Below are positions 3,036-16,934 of a stretch of DNA of 25,985 nucleotides, piece by piece. Under the pieces are notes generated by a model that saw only the letters and a program-made list of their open reading frames with translations, did no database searches and had not been told where the DNA came from. The stretch spans positions 1 to 25,985 of IMG/VR virus record IMGVR_UViG_3300038961_000046. One strand, written 5' to 3'. Position 1 is the stretch's first letter, and each line of letters begins with the position of its first letter. Origin of the DNA: a virus. Position numbers and translations under genes: made by a program.

Positions 3036-3257
3036 TTATTTTGGTTCAACCTCTATGGTGTAAAAGCAATTAATGTTAGTACCTGACTGAGATCGAATCT
3101 CCACCCAATATCCATAATCAATTGTCTTTACAAATAAATCCTGTGCTACACCAAAGGGTGTCAGATGAACCACCATAGTTTCAGGGTTAATCTTACCAAA
3201 CCATTCGCCAGGAAGGGTAATCTTAGATTGTCCCTCTAACTTTCCGCTAATTTTCAT
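3036..3257 (-). CDS. Free-standing copy of a phage structural C-terminal beta domain (73 aa)
   Basis: This 73-residue protein aligns along its whole length with the C-terminal part (about residues 187-255) of the adjacent 299-aa structural protein. Shared positions include G-x-L, I-x-LP-x-x-W, V-x-L-x-P-x-G, QD-hydrophobic-hydrophobic-VK, S-x-(S/G)G and a closing I-(N/D)-CFY. It has no signal peptide and no other domain. Unlike its relative it sits behind its own host-type promoter and after a 45-bp gap. It may be a duplicated, trimmed domain that assembles with or chaperones its parent, or an independent small protein using the same fold. Function inferred only from the similarity. Confidence 0.7.
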   Translation of the reverse strand: MKISGKLEGQSKITLPGEWFGKINPETMVVHLTPFGVAQDLFVKTIDYGYWVEIRSQSGTNINCFYTIEVEPK

Positions 3258-3278: not shown

Positions 3279-3306
3279 ATTATATCACAGAATGAAAAGA
3301 AGTCAA
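3279..3306 (-). promoter_or_regulatory. Sigma70-type promoter for the 73-aa gene
   Basis: Minus strand: -35 TTGACT (3301-3306), a 16-base spacer and a perfect -10 TATAAT (3279-3284). The start point would be about 15 bases before the ATG at 3257. The -35 overlaps the last codons of the upstream structural gene, so the 73-aa gene can be expressed independently of the late tail operon. Confidence 0.62.
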
Positions 3307-4202
3307 GCAGTAAATGTATTACGGGGACCTTTATACTGAGGATCGTTATAGTTACCAGTAGTATTTGCATGATTTGGATCTGGATAATCCATCCAACTAC
3401 TACCATCATATTCTACATAAAGTGGATTAACATCCTTTCTCTCTGCATACACATGATAAAAACAATCAATAGGTAACCCACCATTAGACTGAAGATATAT
3501 CTTCTCCTTATCCCATCTCTTCACAATAATATCCTGATGTGAACCAATAGGTTGCAATTGAACTGAAATACTATCTTCATACACTAAATCTTTCCAATAA
3601 TAAGGCAAAACAATCTCTTTCTTATTCCTCAATCTTCCTCTGAAATATACACCAATCTCAGGGCCCTCTATACAAGCATGAACTAATCTATGTCCCTCCC
3701 CTAAGGTAGGGTGCTCCATATTAAATGTCTTACCCTTAGCATCTGCTGTACTAAATCTTATATTCAAATCACCAATGTTTGGATGATCAAAGAAAGCATT
3801 ACCTCCAACATAAAGAACATGTGCTGAAGTACCAGGTGGTACACCAGCATCAGTTGCACTTGGATTTACAGGAGCCTTTACCTTCGGTAAACCATTTGCA
3901 GTATTAGGATTGTCTACATCTACAGTTTGTCCAGCAGAATTAGTTAGCGAAACGCTACCGCCTGCTGGAAGAATAGCTGCGCAACCTTTAACTTTTAATG
4001 CTCTATCTCCCTTTTGTTTTACACTTGTCTCCACCATTAAGGTTGCTTCACCATAACCAAATCCCTCACCACCAATATTAACTACACCATGAGCACCTAT
4101 ACACCCTTGGATTGCATTATTTCCTGCTCCAATAGGTCCTTGTTGATGACAACCAATGATAAGTTGTTTATGAATAAACTGATTACTAAAAGCGTAAGTC
4201 AT
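3303..4202 (-). CDS. Virion structural protein, tail fibre/baseplate type (299 aa)
   Basis: The N-terminal half is Gly-rich and beta-like. The middle contains HPNIGDLNIRFSTADAKGKTF. The C-terminal half holds a recognisable phage structural module: HP-T-L-GEGHRLVHACIEGPE, then VYFRGRL, LPYYW, V-x-L-x-PIG and IDCFYHVYAERKD. In other phages this HP/EGPE/RG/LP/PIG pattern occurs in C-terminal parts of fibre-like and baseplate-attached proteins. The start overlaps the stop of the 202-aa spike-like gene by ATGA, and this is the last gene of the gp5 late operon. I infer a virion component attached at or near the spike or baseplate; whether it binds the receptor cannot be told. Confidence 0.65.
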   Translation of the reverse strand: MTYAFSNQFIHKQLIIGCHQQGPIGAGNNAIQGCIGAHGVVNIGGEGFGYGEATLMVETSVKQKGDRALKVKGCAAILPAGGSVSLTNSAGQTVDVDNPNTANGLPKVKAPVNPSATDAGVPPGTSAHVLYVGGNAFFDHPNIGDLNIRFSTADAKGKTFNMEHPTLGEGHRLVHACIEGPEIGVYFRGRLRNKKEIVLPYYWKDLVYEDSISVQLQPIGSHQDIIVKRWDKEKIYLQSNGGLPIDCFYHVYAERKDVNPLYVEYDGSSWMDYPDPNHANTTGNYNDPQYKGPRNTFTA

Positions 4203-7800: not shown

Positions 7801-9910
7801 TAACATCAATAGATTTAATTGGATAACTTCTTATATACTTAGTCAGTGCAATTCCAGTGGCTGCAACTGTTCCACCAGTAAGTACTGTATCAACAATTTC
7901 CTGAGCATAATCTAAGATAACCTTTACAACTGCTCCCTTACCCTTTCCACTTGGGTCAGATACTACAGCAAAAGGAGGTGAAGTAAAACCTTTACCAGGT
8001 CTTGTTAATTCTACAGCAAGTAGATTTCCCATTGGTCCAATAACAGCATTGGCAGTAGCACCATTACCATTACCACCAAATATCTTTATCTGTGGTGGTC
8101 CATTAAGAGTTGGACCTGTCTCATCACAACTACCACCACCAGCAACTCTTTGTCCTTCTGTTTGATTCTGGAACGCAGTCTTTATAAAATCTCCACCTCC
8201 AGGGAATAACTTTTCAGCACCAACGACAGCAGCATCTAATGTATTTCCTTCCTCTAAATATGTCTTCGCTAAGTTAAGTATAGAATCTCCAGTTGTTCCA
8301 GGAAAATTACCATAACCAGATAGGTTCTTTGCCTTACTTAAAGTATCAGTAATACCTCCCAATCCACCAAGACTATCCATACTAAAATTATCAGCACTAA
8401 ACGCTGTACTGAAAAGACTATTCTTATTCAGAAAGTTACTTGAACCTGCCACCAATGCAGGATTACCAGGTACTGCAGCAGCAACATTCTCTAGAACATT
8501 ACCCATCTTTATCTGTGATGGTCCTTCTCCATGTCCACCATCCCAAATATTAAAACACTTTATCTTCGGAGGTGGTATACTCTTCTCTCCTTTCATCAAC
8601 TTCTTATAAGAAGAAGTGAAACTAGCAATACCATCCATATCAATACTTATTCCACCAAAAGCATTCAATCCACCTGTAAGTAATCCATTAATAGTATTAC
8701 CTATATCAGGAGGAAAATCTCCAGAGGTAGCCATTGATAACATATCATTAACAGGTCCCATCATCTTATTCATTGCTCCATCAATAGCAGCAATATTCTG
8801 ACCCATTGCAGCACCAGTATAAGATTCAATAACGCAAGGTGGTTGACTGATAAGTTTATTTGAACTGTTTTTAACAAAATCAGCAGCGCTAATAGGTAAT
8901 TGTGATGCTATACCATTAAACTGCCCTATCATACTCTGGGTTGCTTTAGCATTTGACATTTTGGCTTTACCCATGTCCATCAACTTGCCAAATGTAGAGA
9001 AGTTAGACATCATCTTTGAAGATGCCTCTTGCACTGCTGCTTGCATCTTATTCAGATGAGTCTTCTGAGCAACAGCCATATCAAATGATGCTTTCTTCTC
9101 CTCCTTCTCAAGTAAACCCTCAGCCAACTTATTCATACTACCATCAATTTCTATACCATTATGTTCCTTAATCCACGTCTTTATCATGGACAACCTTTTC
9201 ATAGCTCTATCTGCTATTTCAAAGGGATCATTAGTAGGAGAGTTATCTGCTGAACACATCCCACCAGTTGCTTTTCCATTATCATACCGTGTCTTCTCTG
9301 CCTTAGGACGAACGTCTCCCTTAGCACCCTGTTCTAACTGAACAGCTTCTTCAGGTTTAGTTCTTGTTCTTTGGACTCCCGTATTTCCTTCCTTTACATT
9401 AGCACCTCCAACATTTTTTCTTTTAACAGTAGCATCCTTCTTCATGTCAGTAAGAGGTGCTACCCTATGATTAGTAAAACCACTGAATGGTTTATACCTC
9501 TCATGTTTTGGTACAGAAGTTCTAAAATCTTCTTGTGTTGACTTATCTAATACTCCTATAATAATTGGTTGCTGTCCGTCCTCTCCATCTAAGAAGAATC
9601 CAAACACCCATTCACCACCAGTTAAGTTAAGTGATTCAGATGAACCACCTCCACCTCCACCAGCAGTGACTGGGAGCAGACAATATGCCCATGGCAATTC
9701 GTGATTCTTTAGTTCATTCTTATCACTAGTATGCCAACCAAGGATTGATACTTTGACACGCCTCTTAAACCCAGGTAAATCATCAAGATAATCAACTGGC
9801 ATACATGGATAATTATCCGCCCACGTCTCTGCTTCACATACCTGGCCAAGCCACCATGAGAAACCATCCTTACCGATGTTATAATTCTTTAATAGTGAAT
9901 CGTCAATCAT
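4808..9910 (-). CDS. 5: Giant gp5-like baseplate central spike/hub protein (1700 aa)
   Basis: Residues about 15-150 match the layout of the N-terminal OB domain of T4 gp5: FSWWLGQV, RVKVSILGWH, LPWAYCLLPVTAGG, WVFGFFLDGE, PIIIGVLDK and a closing FSGFTNH. T4 gp5 is 575 aa; this one is 1700 aa. I see no T4-type lysozyme domain after the OB part. Instead there are a helical Met/Ala/Lys-rich stretch (about 230-400), Gly-rich regions with fibre-like modules (GPPQIKIFGGNGNGATA, then PGKGFTSPPFAVV, about 600-670; a related GSGYDPD module near the C-terminus), and long unique segments. A short near-repeat LPTDGDI/LPTDEDL lies at the end, visible as two 15-bp DNA copies about 24 bp apart near 4880-4920. 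The start overlaps the CP12-like gene by ATGA. Role: the spike on the hub that pierces the outer membrane; the extra domains are unassigned. Confidence 0.8.
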   Translation of the reverse strand: MIDDSLLKNYNIGKDGFSWWLGQVCEAETWADNYPCMPVDYLDDLPGFKRRVKVSILGWHTSDKNELKNHELPWAYCLLPVTAGGGGGGSSESLNLTGGEWVFGFFLDGEDGQQPIIIGVLDKSTQEDFRTSVPKHERYKPFSGFTNHRVAPLTDMKKDATVKRKNVGGANVKEGNTGVQRTRTKPEEAVQLEQGAKGDVRPKAEKTRYDNGKATGGMCSADNSPTNDPFEIADRAMKRLSMIKTWIKEHNGIEIDGSMNKLAEGLLEKEEKKASFDMAVAQKTHLNKMQAAVQEASSKMMSNFSTFGKLMDMGKAKMSNAKATQSMIGQFNGIASQLPISAADFVKNSSNKLISQPPCVIESYTGAAMGQNIAAIDGAMNKMMGPVNDMLSMATSGDFPPDIGNTINGLLTGGLNAFGGISIDMDGIASFTSSYKKLMKGEKSIPPPKIKCFNIWDGGHGEGPSQIKMGNVLENVAAAVPGNPALVAGSSNFLNKNSLFSTAFSADNFSMDSLGGLGGITDTLSKAKNLSGYGNFPGTTGDSILNLAKTYLEEGNTLDAAVVGAEKLFPGGGDFIKTAFQNQTEGQRVAGGGSCDETGPTLNGPPQIKIFGGNGNGATANAVIGPMGNLLAVELTRPGKGFTSPPFAVVSDPSGKGKGAVVKVILDYAQEIVDTVLTGGTVAATGIALTKYIRSYPIKSIDVIEPGTGYMSRPDGSVGGNGFTFAEKGNTTVKDREGNYYSFEPGTGIKVPPGSTVYFPAGTTAMLPTNAVKTNGEPLADTKGSNIVNYAALRMMHDFDTSVGKIIPGPQGAEGTGKPGFGKGNDYKLAKEQGYSDADIRFFLEGDPARGQQSYFLSRMNGAIGQNMQKLLDDPTWGQLPVMNSAGKKPGKIKSIQVNIKKGYKGFAKVTDGSRLGAGPILSLRDAVTDRKISNILEFQTGNWLNQNANLEGNTDILQLFRDQELRAINGTPIEEFGKFGTAGIRSWEQTRQKVGADTDVSGGGQRYNINGEKYRTLDPWRADIPDGTRLTFRGCYNHNTVLNAEQLADPYNLQKNNYRYFIYDYEVEVYSTAQGYSYAAGETDPVKTKWYKLIGIKFVTGTEDWFNGETVNKRCRDKAGRLYEMYITVCTYDDEQAQAIGGGLATNSEVQEIIRTPLPCNPEIIKDEYADYQKVRWYREDIKGGIPDEKGDKYGEDWGHMPGSERNELVRQIVKIYNSFGDKEREWAYKYGESGKQGRMYVDRPGLHKWINDYFKWLDKLKLGQTCDHDETIVPQTVPGFNGPGVYLDLRGVTGLQTIQFREVVDSSLTHHKLDIPGIATISEEGLWLWDLGVQRDPIFGIPIGFSVPPSTSMVVNDILGGRIYGPITSSTAAGVWAGTEKLFPGIIAAAQAAAGTSNMWDPTPWVGKGPSSIVMLEEAAPDTPFFMTGTVDAVGEVAKAAVPPEIVPSSSPNYSAFGLMTSLGKFVRLDAAPVGGPPKKKRVPKTTVPLSEEDYKKYRYDLNQKPEPRAWACVKKFIYEEAEERFDDEGMIWKETTYCDWAREYVDEVRTAFRPTTTIGYDLPCGGEITAPSETPTEPVVTSDTKIVKPKQTVINSTGSGYDPDTDNISIGGEDVPFEVDPEGRIVKVGVPNIIVDDYPPVIINTQYGAGADIETILEVLPLPTDGDITLPTDEDLLPLKMVEVIDCVGKNIFIKEN

Positions 9911-10164
9911 TCGTCGTAGACTCTACACTCCTCTGCATCTGGATGATTATCACAATAGACTTCAAGTTTCTTGTCTTGATGTCTTATATGCCAATCATTA
10001 ATACCAGTCTCTGGTTCATCACCTTTATGGTACTCATCATAATAGGCATGAGCAGATTCTAAATCTGCCTTAGTATATTCCATTTTACCATGGTTAATAT
10101 GCTCCTTGCCATCTTTAGGGTCAAGGTAAACTTCATGGTCTAAATCGTGTTTGATTTCTGACAT
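9907..10164 (-). CDS. CP12-like small protein (85 aa) inside the tail operon
   Basis: The last 19 residues, LEVYCDNHPDAEECRVYDE, match the C-terminal signature of CP12, the redox-switched linker that binds glyceraldehyde-3-phosphate dehydrogenase and phosphoribulokinase in the Calvin cycle. The Cys pair is spaced as in CP12 (C-x8-C). The N-terminal Cys pair and the AWD-x-VEEL core are absent; instead there is an unrelated acidic, His/Tyr-rich part (YTKADLESAHAYYDEYHKGD). It is therefore a C-terminal-half CP12 variant, not the usual phage cp12. A good ribosome site (AAGGAA) and a late promoter motif lie upstream, and its stop overlaps the gp5 start (ATGA). Expression should be late and coupled to the spike. 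Whether it binds GAPDH or is a virion part is unknown. Confidence 0.72.
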   Translation of the reverse strand: MSEIKHDLDHEVYLDPKDGKEHINHGKMEYTKADLESAHAYYDEYHKGDEPETGINDWHIRHQDKKLEVYCDNHPDAEECRVYDE

Positions 10165-10184: not shown

Positions 10185-10191
10185 TATTTAG
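10185..10191 (-). promoter_or_regulatory. T4-type late promoter motif before the CP12-like/gp5 operon
   Basis: CTAAATA reads on the minus strand 20 bases upstream of the CP12-like start, within the only sizeable gap (113 bp, very AT-rich) of the tail block. It matches the -10-like late promoter element of T4-like phages (consensus TATAAATA, often CTAAATA in cyanophages). No factor-independent terminator is visible in the gap, so read-through from the hub gene is likely. Confidence 0.5.
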
Positions 10192-10276
10192 AAGGGATTT
10201 TTAAAAAAGTAATAGAGCAAAAAATTACCGCGATTTTTTTTCCGGCTTTTTTATAATTAAAAGCTGAAATAATATA

Positions 10277-11725
10277 TCAACGTCCTCGTTTATCAAAATC
10301 AAATTTGTTAAACGTTACCGCATCAGCAATTCCAGTCACTGCTCTCATCATACCCACAGGTTTCTCAGGTTCAGATGATGAATTAGAAGGTGGTGCTGGT
10401 TTTAATTGAAATGAATCACGAATAAGATTCATTGTAGAATAACTTTCAGATGCCGTAACTTTATGGCACACACTTGCTATCACATAGAGTCCTTTAGTCT
10501 GTGGGTTAGGCTTACCACCTGGTTCGGTGTACGTACAAGATATCATATCACCTGCTTTGAATTTAAAGTTACCTTTTATCATGATATCAACACTAATAGT
10601 AAAAAGTTGATTGTATCTACTGATTGCCTGTGTCGTTCTATCAATTATTCTATCATTAGTTTCGTCTTTCTTCTTCTTCCAAGTATGCAATTGCTGCCGT
10701 CCCTCACTACCAGAAGGTAAACATCCAACATCCAGAACACCACTTACACCTCTAGTAGAAATCTTTAAAAAGTCTTCAGCAACAAAGTTAAGTTGTTTTC
10801 CTGCACTCTTAACCTCACCAACTTGATCATTCTGTAATGAAAAAGGCTTTGTCTTAACTTCAAATGTATGTGGATTAAAGAACGTGAACGTGGTATTATA
10901 AGCACCCATTGCGAGTTTGGATTGAACATCAATGTTTTGATTGATATTCCATTGAATTATCTTACCATCATGTCCCTCTGTAAGTTTATCTACTTCATTA
11001 TACTCATACTTAGGAGCATCCTTTGAATCAGCACTACCACCACCTTTTGTTGGTCCAAGTAATGTTTCAATGGATTTGTATTGAAATCCATCTCTTGTTT
11101 GATAGAAAAAGAAACCCGCTGTCTTTCCATAAGCACCATCTGCTGGAATAGATTTAGATGCTAACCAAGTCACCATATAAAATGGTTTCTTCATATTACC
11201 AATAAAATTATATGAATTAGATGTCTCTTCTACATCTAATGGTGTAGTAGTTTCTAATACATCCTTTAATATCTTATTAACACTCTCAGATATCTTTCCA
11301 CTATATCTCTTAACAACTCTTGTTTGTTCGTTAGCAAGATATTCTTTAGTACATAAATCTAAAGTAAAAATACTTCGAGTGGTATCTGTCAATACATTTC
11401 TAACTTTATTAACATACAATGCATTCTCACCAACAAAACTTATCTCATTACCTTGTGGATCAATAGCACGTATCCTCACAGGTTCACCACCTCTCACTGG
11501 TAATCCATCTAATACATTCTTCACCTTACCACCAACTTTAACAGAATAACCAGTCTCTCCAATAATTACCTCAGCAGTTATATGATTAGATAAAATACTT
11601 TCATATAACCTAAAGTCAATAAGACCACCTCTCAAATCAACAGCATACCCCGTCTCAGGATTGCTGATTGAAAGTTCATGGAATACCGTTTGTTCTCCGT
11701 CTTTAGATGTATTGTCTCCTGGCAT
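10277..11725 (-). CDS. Baseplate hub protein, gp27-like (482 aa)
   Basis: The protein has the layout of gp27/VgrG-N hub proteins: beta-rich opening (GYAVDLRGGLIDFRLYESI), a second beta domain with VRIRAIDPQGNEISF, a helix-containing middle (SGKISESVNKILKDVLETT, YMVTWLASKSI) with the FFFYQTRDGFQYKSIE strand pair, and a C-terminal half with FKAGDMISCTY and GLYVIASVCHKV, the usual closing barrel of hub proteins. T4 gp27 is 391 aa. The gene lies one step upstream of the spike gene with only the CP12-like gene between, as expected for the hub that carries the spike. Its start overlaps the upstream stop as TAATG. Sequence similarity to T4 gp27 is low, so the call rests on architecture and synteny. 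Confidence 0.65.
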   Translation of the reverse strand: MPGDNTSKDGEQTVFHELSISNPETGYAVDLRGGLIDFRLYESILSNHITAEVIIGETGYSVKVGGKVKNVLDGLPVRGGEPVRIRAIDPQGNEISFVGENALYVNKVRNVLTDTTRSIFTLDLCTKEYLANEQTRVVKRYSGKISESVNKILKDVLETTTPLDVEETSNSYNFIGNMKKPFYMVTWLASKSIPADGAYGKTAGFFFYQTRDGFQYKSIETLLGPTKGGGSADSKDAPKYEYNEVDKLTEGHDGKIIQWNINQNIDVQSKLAMGAYNTTFTFFNPHTFEVKTKPFSLQNDQVGEVKSAGKQLNFVAEDFLKISTRGVSGVLDVGCLPSGSEGRQQLHTWKKKKDETNDRIIDRTTQAISRYNQLFTISVDIMIKGNFKFKAGDMISCTYTEPGGKPNPQTKGLYVIASVCHKVTASESYSTMNLIRDSFQLKPAPPSNSSSEPEKPVGMMRAVTGIADAVTFNKFDFDKRGR

Positions 11726-16211: not shown

Positions 16212-16934
16212 CTACGCGAAAAAACTTGACAATCCCTCCAAAGTAACAGTACTTTTCTTCTTAGTCTTAGGATTAGTTACGTTAACATCATAAGAAAGTT
16301 TAGGCATTGTCTCAAAGAACTGCTCAATCTCTTGGAACTGATTAGAACTCAACTGCTCTAGGAACTCTTGCAATTCTTTCTTACTAGACTCAGAAGCAGG
16401 CCATGCTTCCTCTTCGCTGTAGATAGTATCAATACAAGATGCAATTAAATCAAATGATTGTTCAAGTTGAGAACCCTTAGTCTCATCAATATCAAAATTA
16501 CTTTGAATGAACTGATCAAGAGAAGGATACTTCATCTTCATCGATAGTTCATCATCCAACTTAATAGTATTATAATGATCTTTATTCTTCTCTACTTGTA
16601 TATCATCAATAGGAATTTTAAGTTCAACAGTAGTCCTCTCATCATCAGGACAAGTAACAGTAACATCAACTTCCTCACCAACAGACTTACCTCTGATATT
16701 AAGGAACAAATATTCTATATCAAATGTAGGAAGTTTCGCTACATTAATCTTTGTTTTAATACAAGACTTAAGAACTTCTTTGATTGCTCTGGTGATACTC
16801 TTAGTATCATCACTCTCCATTGCAAGTACAAGGAGTTTCTCTTCTCTAACAAGAAAAGGTCTATACTCTATTGTCTCTCCTGTTGATGGCAATTCCAACT
16901 CATATGTTGGCGTAGCAATTTTTGGTAAAGGCAT
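16212..16934 (-). CDS. 26: Baseplate hub subunit gp26 (240 aa)
   Basis: The protein opens MPLPKIATPTYELELPSTGE and continues with IEYRPFLVREEKLLVLAME, the hallmark of the T4 gp26 family (T4 baseplate protein), followed by a small beta domain with VTVTCPDDERTTVELKI and a helical C-terminus ending in YDVNVTNPKTKKKSTVTLEGL. T4 gp26 is 208 aa. It contributes to hub assembly with gp51, encoded 12 bases downstream. A perfect T4 late promoter lies 22 bases upstream of the ATG, so this gene probably begins a late operon running through gp5. No Shine-Dalgarno is visible. Confidence 0.85.
   Translation of the reverse strand: MPLPKIATPTYELELPSTGETIEYRPFLVREEKLLVLAMESDDTKSITRAIKEVLKSCIKTKINVAKLPTFDIEYLFLNIRGKSVGEEVDVTVTCPDDERTTVELKIPIDDIQVEKNKDHYNTIKLDDELSMKMKYPSLDQFIQSNFDIDETKGSQLEQSFDLIASCIDTIYSEEEAWPASESSKKELQEFLEQLSSNQFQEIEQFFETMPKLSYDVNVTNPKTKKKSTVTLEGLSSFFA

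Follow-up and report, generated by a model that had tools for sequence, protein, structure and literature searches.

A divergent viral CP12 gene between a tail gene and gp5 in a T4-like virus genome fragment

Introduction

That cyanophages control the carbon fixation of their hosts is well established, and cp12 is among the main genes involved. In Synechocystis CP12, the C-terminal Cys pair docks GapDH2 and the N-terminal pair docks PRK; mutants of the N-terminal pair are nearly wild type, whereas mutants of the C-terminal pair are not (PMC9623430). CP12-like tails carried by other proteins, GapB and adenylate kinase 3, bind GAPDH as well (PMC9406205). The CP12 of cyanophages is believed to put a brake on the Calvin cycle, in favour of the pentose phosphate pathway (PMC5082946). 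With regard to genomic position, Sullivan et al. 2010 reported that cp12 may be near gp5 and that variable genes concentrate in hot spots, namely around gp5 and in the gp46-gp25 interval; the same work filed the cluster T4-GC63 (P-SSM2_066, Syn1_235; the P-SSM2 gene is 267 bp) as CP12 (PMC3037559).

Here we analyse a cp12-like gene in a 25,985-base stretch of viral DNA, hereafter the window. A sequence-only reading had offered three roles for its product, namely a late-made GAPDH-binding peptide, a protein packaged or injected with the tail, and a baseplate part that reuses the motif. The gene is a genuine virus version of CP12; it belongs to a divergent subfamily of a known metabolic gene family and is probably not a tail part. 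It is already known through the P-SSM2 homologue listed in 2010, to which the window gene adds another member.

Results

A CP12-type tail joined to a His-rich N-terminal half

Besides the genes below, the window carries T4-like genes for a tail tube protein, a ssDNA-binding protein, thymidylate synthase, a late-promoter regulator and a PhoH-like protein. The features relevant to this study are as follows.

9907..10164, minus strand: cp12-like gene (PHROG_2603 / T4-GC63 subfamily), 85 aa, assigned by Pfam and PHROG profiles and alignment
9910..9984, minus strand: CP12-type C-terminal tail, residues 61-85, with Cys71 and Cys80 and Pro75 between them; PF02672 positions 47-70
9985..10164, minus strand: His-rich N-terminal half, residues 1-60, strongly conserved in the family
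10185..10192, minus strand: late-promoter-like box TCTAAATA, 28 nt upstream of the cp12-like start codon
9907..9910, minus strand: ATGA overlap of the cp12-like stop codon and the gp5 start codon
4808..9910, minus strand: gp5-type baseplate hub/tail lysozyme gene (phrog_1922, E 2.9e-64), downstream of the cp12-like gene
10277..11725, minus strand: tail protein gene (phrog_350, E 2.2e-83), upstream of the cp12-like gene
16212-16934: baseplate hub gene (phrog_150), further upstream than the phrog_350 tail gene

The ATGA shared with gp5 is thus as the sequence-only reading had described it. Its placement of the gene between tail hub and spike is right for gp5 downstream, but the direct upstream neighbour is the phrog_350 tail protein, with the hub further upstream. 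With 1700 aa, the gp5-type product is unusually large for its profile: the phrog_1922 match covers about the first 410 residues only, and most of the remainder has no assignment. Elsewhere in the window, a 73-aa ORF (3036-3257, minus strand) and the adjacent 299-aa gene (3303-4202, minus strand) both match PHROG 17490; the ORF matches interior positions of that profile, like a partial duplicate beside the larger gene.

The 85-aa product ends in LEVYCDNHPDAEECRVYDE, which contains the only two Cys residues of the protein. The Pfam CP12 profile (PF02672) scores 33.3 bits against it (E 8.3e-8; curated cut-off 22.7), the match being restricted to residues 61-84, which correspond to profile positions 47-70 of 70 and make up 24 of the 85 residues. 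The CP12-like C-terminus with paired Cys, as first described, is therefore confirmed, and the profile search suggested at that time returns a significant match. In addition, the PHROG_2603 profile is matched end to end (1-76 of 76, E 1.2e-20), P-SSM2_066 is 67% identical over residues 1-85, and the solved structures nearest in sequence are CP12 chains from GAPDH complexes, with 3zdf and 6gfo leading. A search of NCBIfam with the window protein gave no match, and for residues 1-60 no known-domain match was found in Pfam, PHROG, NCBIfam or solved-structure searches. In PHROGs v4, PHROG_2603 and PHROG_627 are both labelled "unknown function", despite members that match Pfam CP12 and carry a CP12 annotation in several genomes.

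Conservation of the family

A scan of IMG/VR gave 112 relatives, 80 of which underlie the locus counts given here for this family; further relatives came from P-SSM2 and from six marine single-cell virus records of the AG-345 series that carry no annotation. Both C-terminal Cys residues are invariant in all 90 aligned sequences (the window and 89 relatives), so the Cys pair is kept throughout, as the sequence-only reading had proposed to check. His74, Pro75, Val82 and Asp84 are likewise invariant, with either Tyr or Phe at position 83. The N-terminal half is strongly conserved in the family as well, in the blocks HDLxHEVYxDPKDxKEHxNHG and INDWHxRHxD. When relatives are compared with the window, synonymous differences are large and non-synonymous ones few (dN/dS mostly 0.03-0.17), which indicates that the protein is under purifying selection. 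Shorter relatives of 65-76 aa have a different and reduced N-terminal part, and the Pfam CP12 score of such short members (ACG-2014f, Syn1 and others) lies slightly under the cut-off. An AlphaFold model of the whole protein, built on an alignment of the window and IMG/VR sequences, is of low confidence (mean pLDDT 57) and shows no folded domain.

A search of bacterial genomes for a cellular source did not find one and gave three matches only, all in MAGs labelled with implausible hosts (Actinomycetota, Gammaproteobacteria and Flavobacteriales). On these contigs the gene adjoins phage tail and gp5 genes, and they look like misbinned cyanophage contigs. The relatives in the AG-345 marine single-cell records and in Prochlorococcus and Synechococcus phages point to a cyanobacterial host.

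Two forms of phage CP12

The sequence-only reading was correct that the AWD_VEEL core and the N-terminal Cys pair are absent, yet their absence is not distinctive. Specifically, the accepted CP12 proteins of P-HM2, S-SM2, S-RIM2, S-H38 and P-TIM68 have the C-terminal Cys pair alone and no AWD_VEEL core, and all 57 distinct sequences of this accepted form carry just the C-terminal pair. The Pfam CP12 match of the accepted form is nearly full length (3-70). In hhalign, the two phage groups align via the C-terminus with a probability of 95.7%, whereas the first 63 residues of the window family give a probability of 0.1% against the accepted group; this comparison thus failed to relate the N-terminal half to the CP12 N-terminus. 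Because the Pfam match is partial and residues 1-63 show no relation to the accepted group, the window protein is, at the level of sequence, the more divergent of two phage CP12 forms.

Exactly one CP12 match is present in each of eight isolate records with the window form (P-SSM2, P-SSM5, ACG-2014f, RB11-B, Syn1, S-CAM1, S-B43 and Sf-CH3), and one in the window's own record, a 26 kb fragment. Each of five accepted-form records likewise has one PHROG_2603-type match, located at the accepted cp12 gene itself. The single CP12 per record, together with the slots that both forms share, suggests that one phage CP12 form stands in for the other.

The slot before gp5 is an ordinary cp12 location

In 40 of 80 IMG/VR loci, the window-family gene is immediately flanked by the phrog_350 tail gene and gp5, and spacing to gp5 is comparably tight to the window's ATGA overlap in 40 IMG/VR loci. 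The survey of cyanophage loci that the sequence-only reading had called for shows that the gene is not confined to this slot: it precedes gp25-gp6 in eight loci, sits in a cluster of small accessory genes in P-SSM2 and similar loci, and is downstream of gp5 in a few. The accepted form occupies much the same places. In S-SM2, the annotated CP12 gene is all that separates the same tail gene from gp5, which it overlaps by one base; in S-RIM2 and S-H38, cp12 follows the tail gene, with other genes intervening before gp5; and in P-TIM68 it is positioned before gp25-gp6. Relatives of the S-SM2 protein fill the strict tail gene-gp5 slot in 52 of 80 IMG/VR loci, a sample that favours close S-SM2 relatives. 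For a cyanomyovirus cp12, this slot is a frequent and ordinary location, and the position in the structural operon, first taken as unusual, is not so.

A positioned late-type box that does not date expression

The box [ACGT][ACT]TAAATA is found upstream of the gene in 23 of 48 loci of the tail gene-gp5 slot. In 22 of these it falls within -28 to -33, against about 0.06 expected from its density. The late-type box is a real, positioned element, and this part of the earlier late-promoter claim stands. The late-made reading attached to it lacks support. The box also precedes the accepted cp12 genes of P-HM2, S-RIM2 and S-H38, and P-HM2 cp12 was measured in the middle expression cluster (PMC5082946); its presence is hence no evidence of late synthesis and cannot be used to date expression. 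A variant box, (G/T)TAAATA, lies about 30 nt before the start codon in the eight loci that precede gp25-gp6, and also precedes the accepted CP12 gene of P-TIM68.

Divergence is partly independent of the tail genes

Pairwise protein identities were compared across 33 loci. Tail and hub proteins correlate at 0.80, versus rho 0.25 for cp12 and the tail protein and 0.21 for cp12 and the hub. As a control, hub segments cut to the length of cp12 were compared with the tail protein and gave 0.73-0.79. The weak cp12-tail correlation despite this control indicates that cp12 and the tail have in part evolved independently. A baseplate or virion protein was expected to show fixed association and co-divergence with tail genes; the gene instead occurs in several contexts, with rho 0.25.

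Discussion

We propose, with a probability of about 0.8, that the gene is the phage's cp12 and acts on host Gap2 via its C-terminal tail. Its product would be small, soluble and synthesised in the infected cell, and its C-terminal loop (Cys71-Cys80), once oxidised, would dock, like that of CP12, at the active site of Gap2, the photosynthetic GAPDH of the host. Such docking may slow Calvin-cycle NADPH use and thereby spare reducing power, together with pentoses, for making phage nucleotides, and the slot between the tail gene and gp5 would serve expression rather than assembly. As the C-terminal tail is kept, we infer an action on GAPDH, comprising binding, inhibition and redox control by the window protein. 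Given the lost resemblance of the N-terminal half to CP12, PRK recruitment is probably absent or achieved via other contacts. Two observations weigh against this proposal: only 24 of 85 residues match CP12 while the N-terminal half is also conserved, and the short relatives fall just below the Pfam cut-off.

The same observations bear on the other explanations. The restriction of the match to 24 residues might reflect chance resemblance, or reuse of a CP12-derived motif for a purpose unrelated to GAPDH, but an E of 8.3e-8 over the curated cut-off, a motif fixed in 90 sequences and one CP12 per isolate genome tested make either highly improbable. Tight coupling to gp5 in 40 of 80 loci and a late-type box of its own in roughly half of the slot loci would suit a virion component, either a baseplate part or a tail-carried, injected peptide that uses its CP12-type tail on GAPDH at the start of infection. 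This, too, is very unlikely, although slightly less so than chance: the gene is away from gp5 in P-SSM2, in the accessory cluster and before gp25-gp6, its divergence does not follow that of the tail protein as short hub segments do, and an accepted cp12, treated as metabolic, occupies the same slot. The packaged or injected and the baseplate-part readings thus lose support, and GAPDH binding appears the best of the three roles first offered, the CP12 homology holding at the sequence level.

What the N-terminal half does is a separate matter. The block formed by residues 1-60 is rich in His and strongly conserved (HDLxHEVYxDPKDxKEHxNHG, DWHxRHxD), evolves under purifying selection and has no detected relation to the CP12 N-terminus, and CP12-like tails of other proteins are known to bind GAPDH (PMC9406205). 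The tail may accordingly tether a separate N-terminal module to GAPDH and bring in a second activity or partner. Under this tentative idea, which we consider rather unlikely, a widespread marine cyanophage family would have swapped the CP12 N-terminal half for a new conserved His-rich module, giving a GAPDH-directed adaptor that inhibits or retargets the enzyme without PRK, possibly by binding a metal or a further partner from the host. The low-confidence AlphaFold model, the missing known-domain match and the different, shorter N-terminal part of the 65-76 aa relatives argue against it.

For the phage-cp12 proposal, the window form is an experiment of nature on whether host carbon metabolism can be redirected by the C-terminal tail by itself. 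Moreover, the CP12 form found in many uncultivated viruses of the ocean is labelled "unknown function", so that label-based surveys would undercount the gene.

Comparison with known systems places the window protein closest to the T4-GC63 / PHROG_2603 CP12 proteins (P-SSM2_066, Syn1_235), which share the C-terminal Cys pair and a full-length match; the P-SSM2 and Syn1 genes differ in being in accessory regions away from gp5, and Syn1-type members have a shorter N-terminus. The T4-GC337 / PHROG_627 CP12 proteins (P-HM2, S-SM2, S-RIM2, P-TIM68) are alike in having only the C-terminal pair and no AWD_VEEL, and the S-SM2 copy is in the same slot before gp5, but their Pfam match is nearly full length rather than 47-70 only and their N-terminal half shows no relation to that of the window protein. 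Canonical CP12 of cyanobacteria and plants has the same C-terminal CxxxPxxxxC tail, which docks GAPDH in the canonical protein, whereas the window protein lacks the N-terminal Cys pair and the AWD_VEEL core and has no recognisable PRK-side N-terminal half. Finally, the GapB C-terminal extension and the adenylate kinase 3 tail resemble the window protein in joining a CP12-type tail to a different N-terminal part, which is an enzyme in those two proteins and about 60 residues in the window protein.
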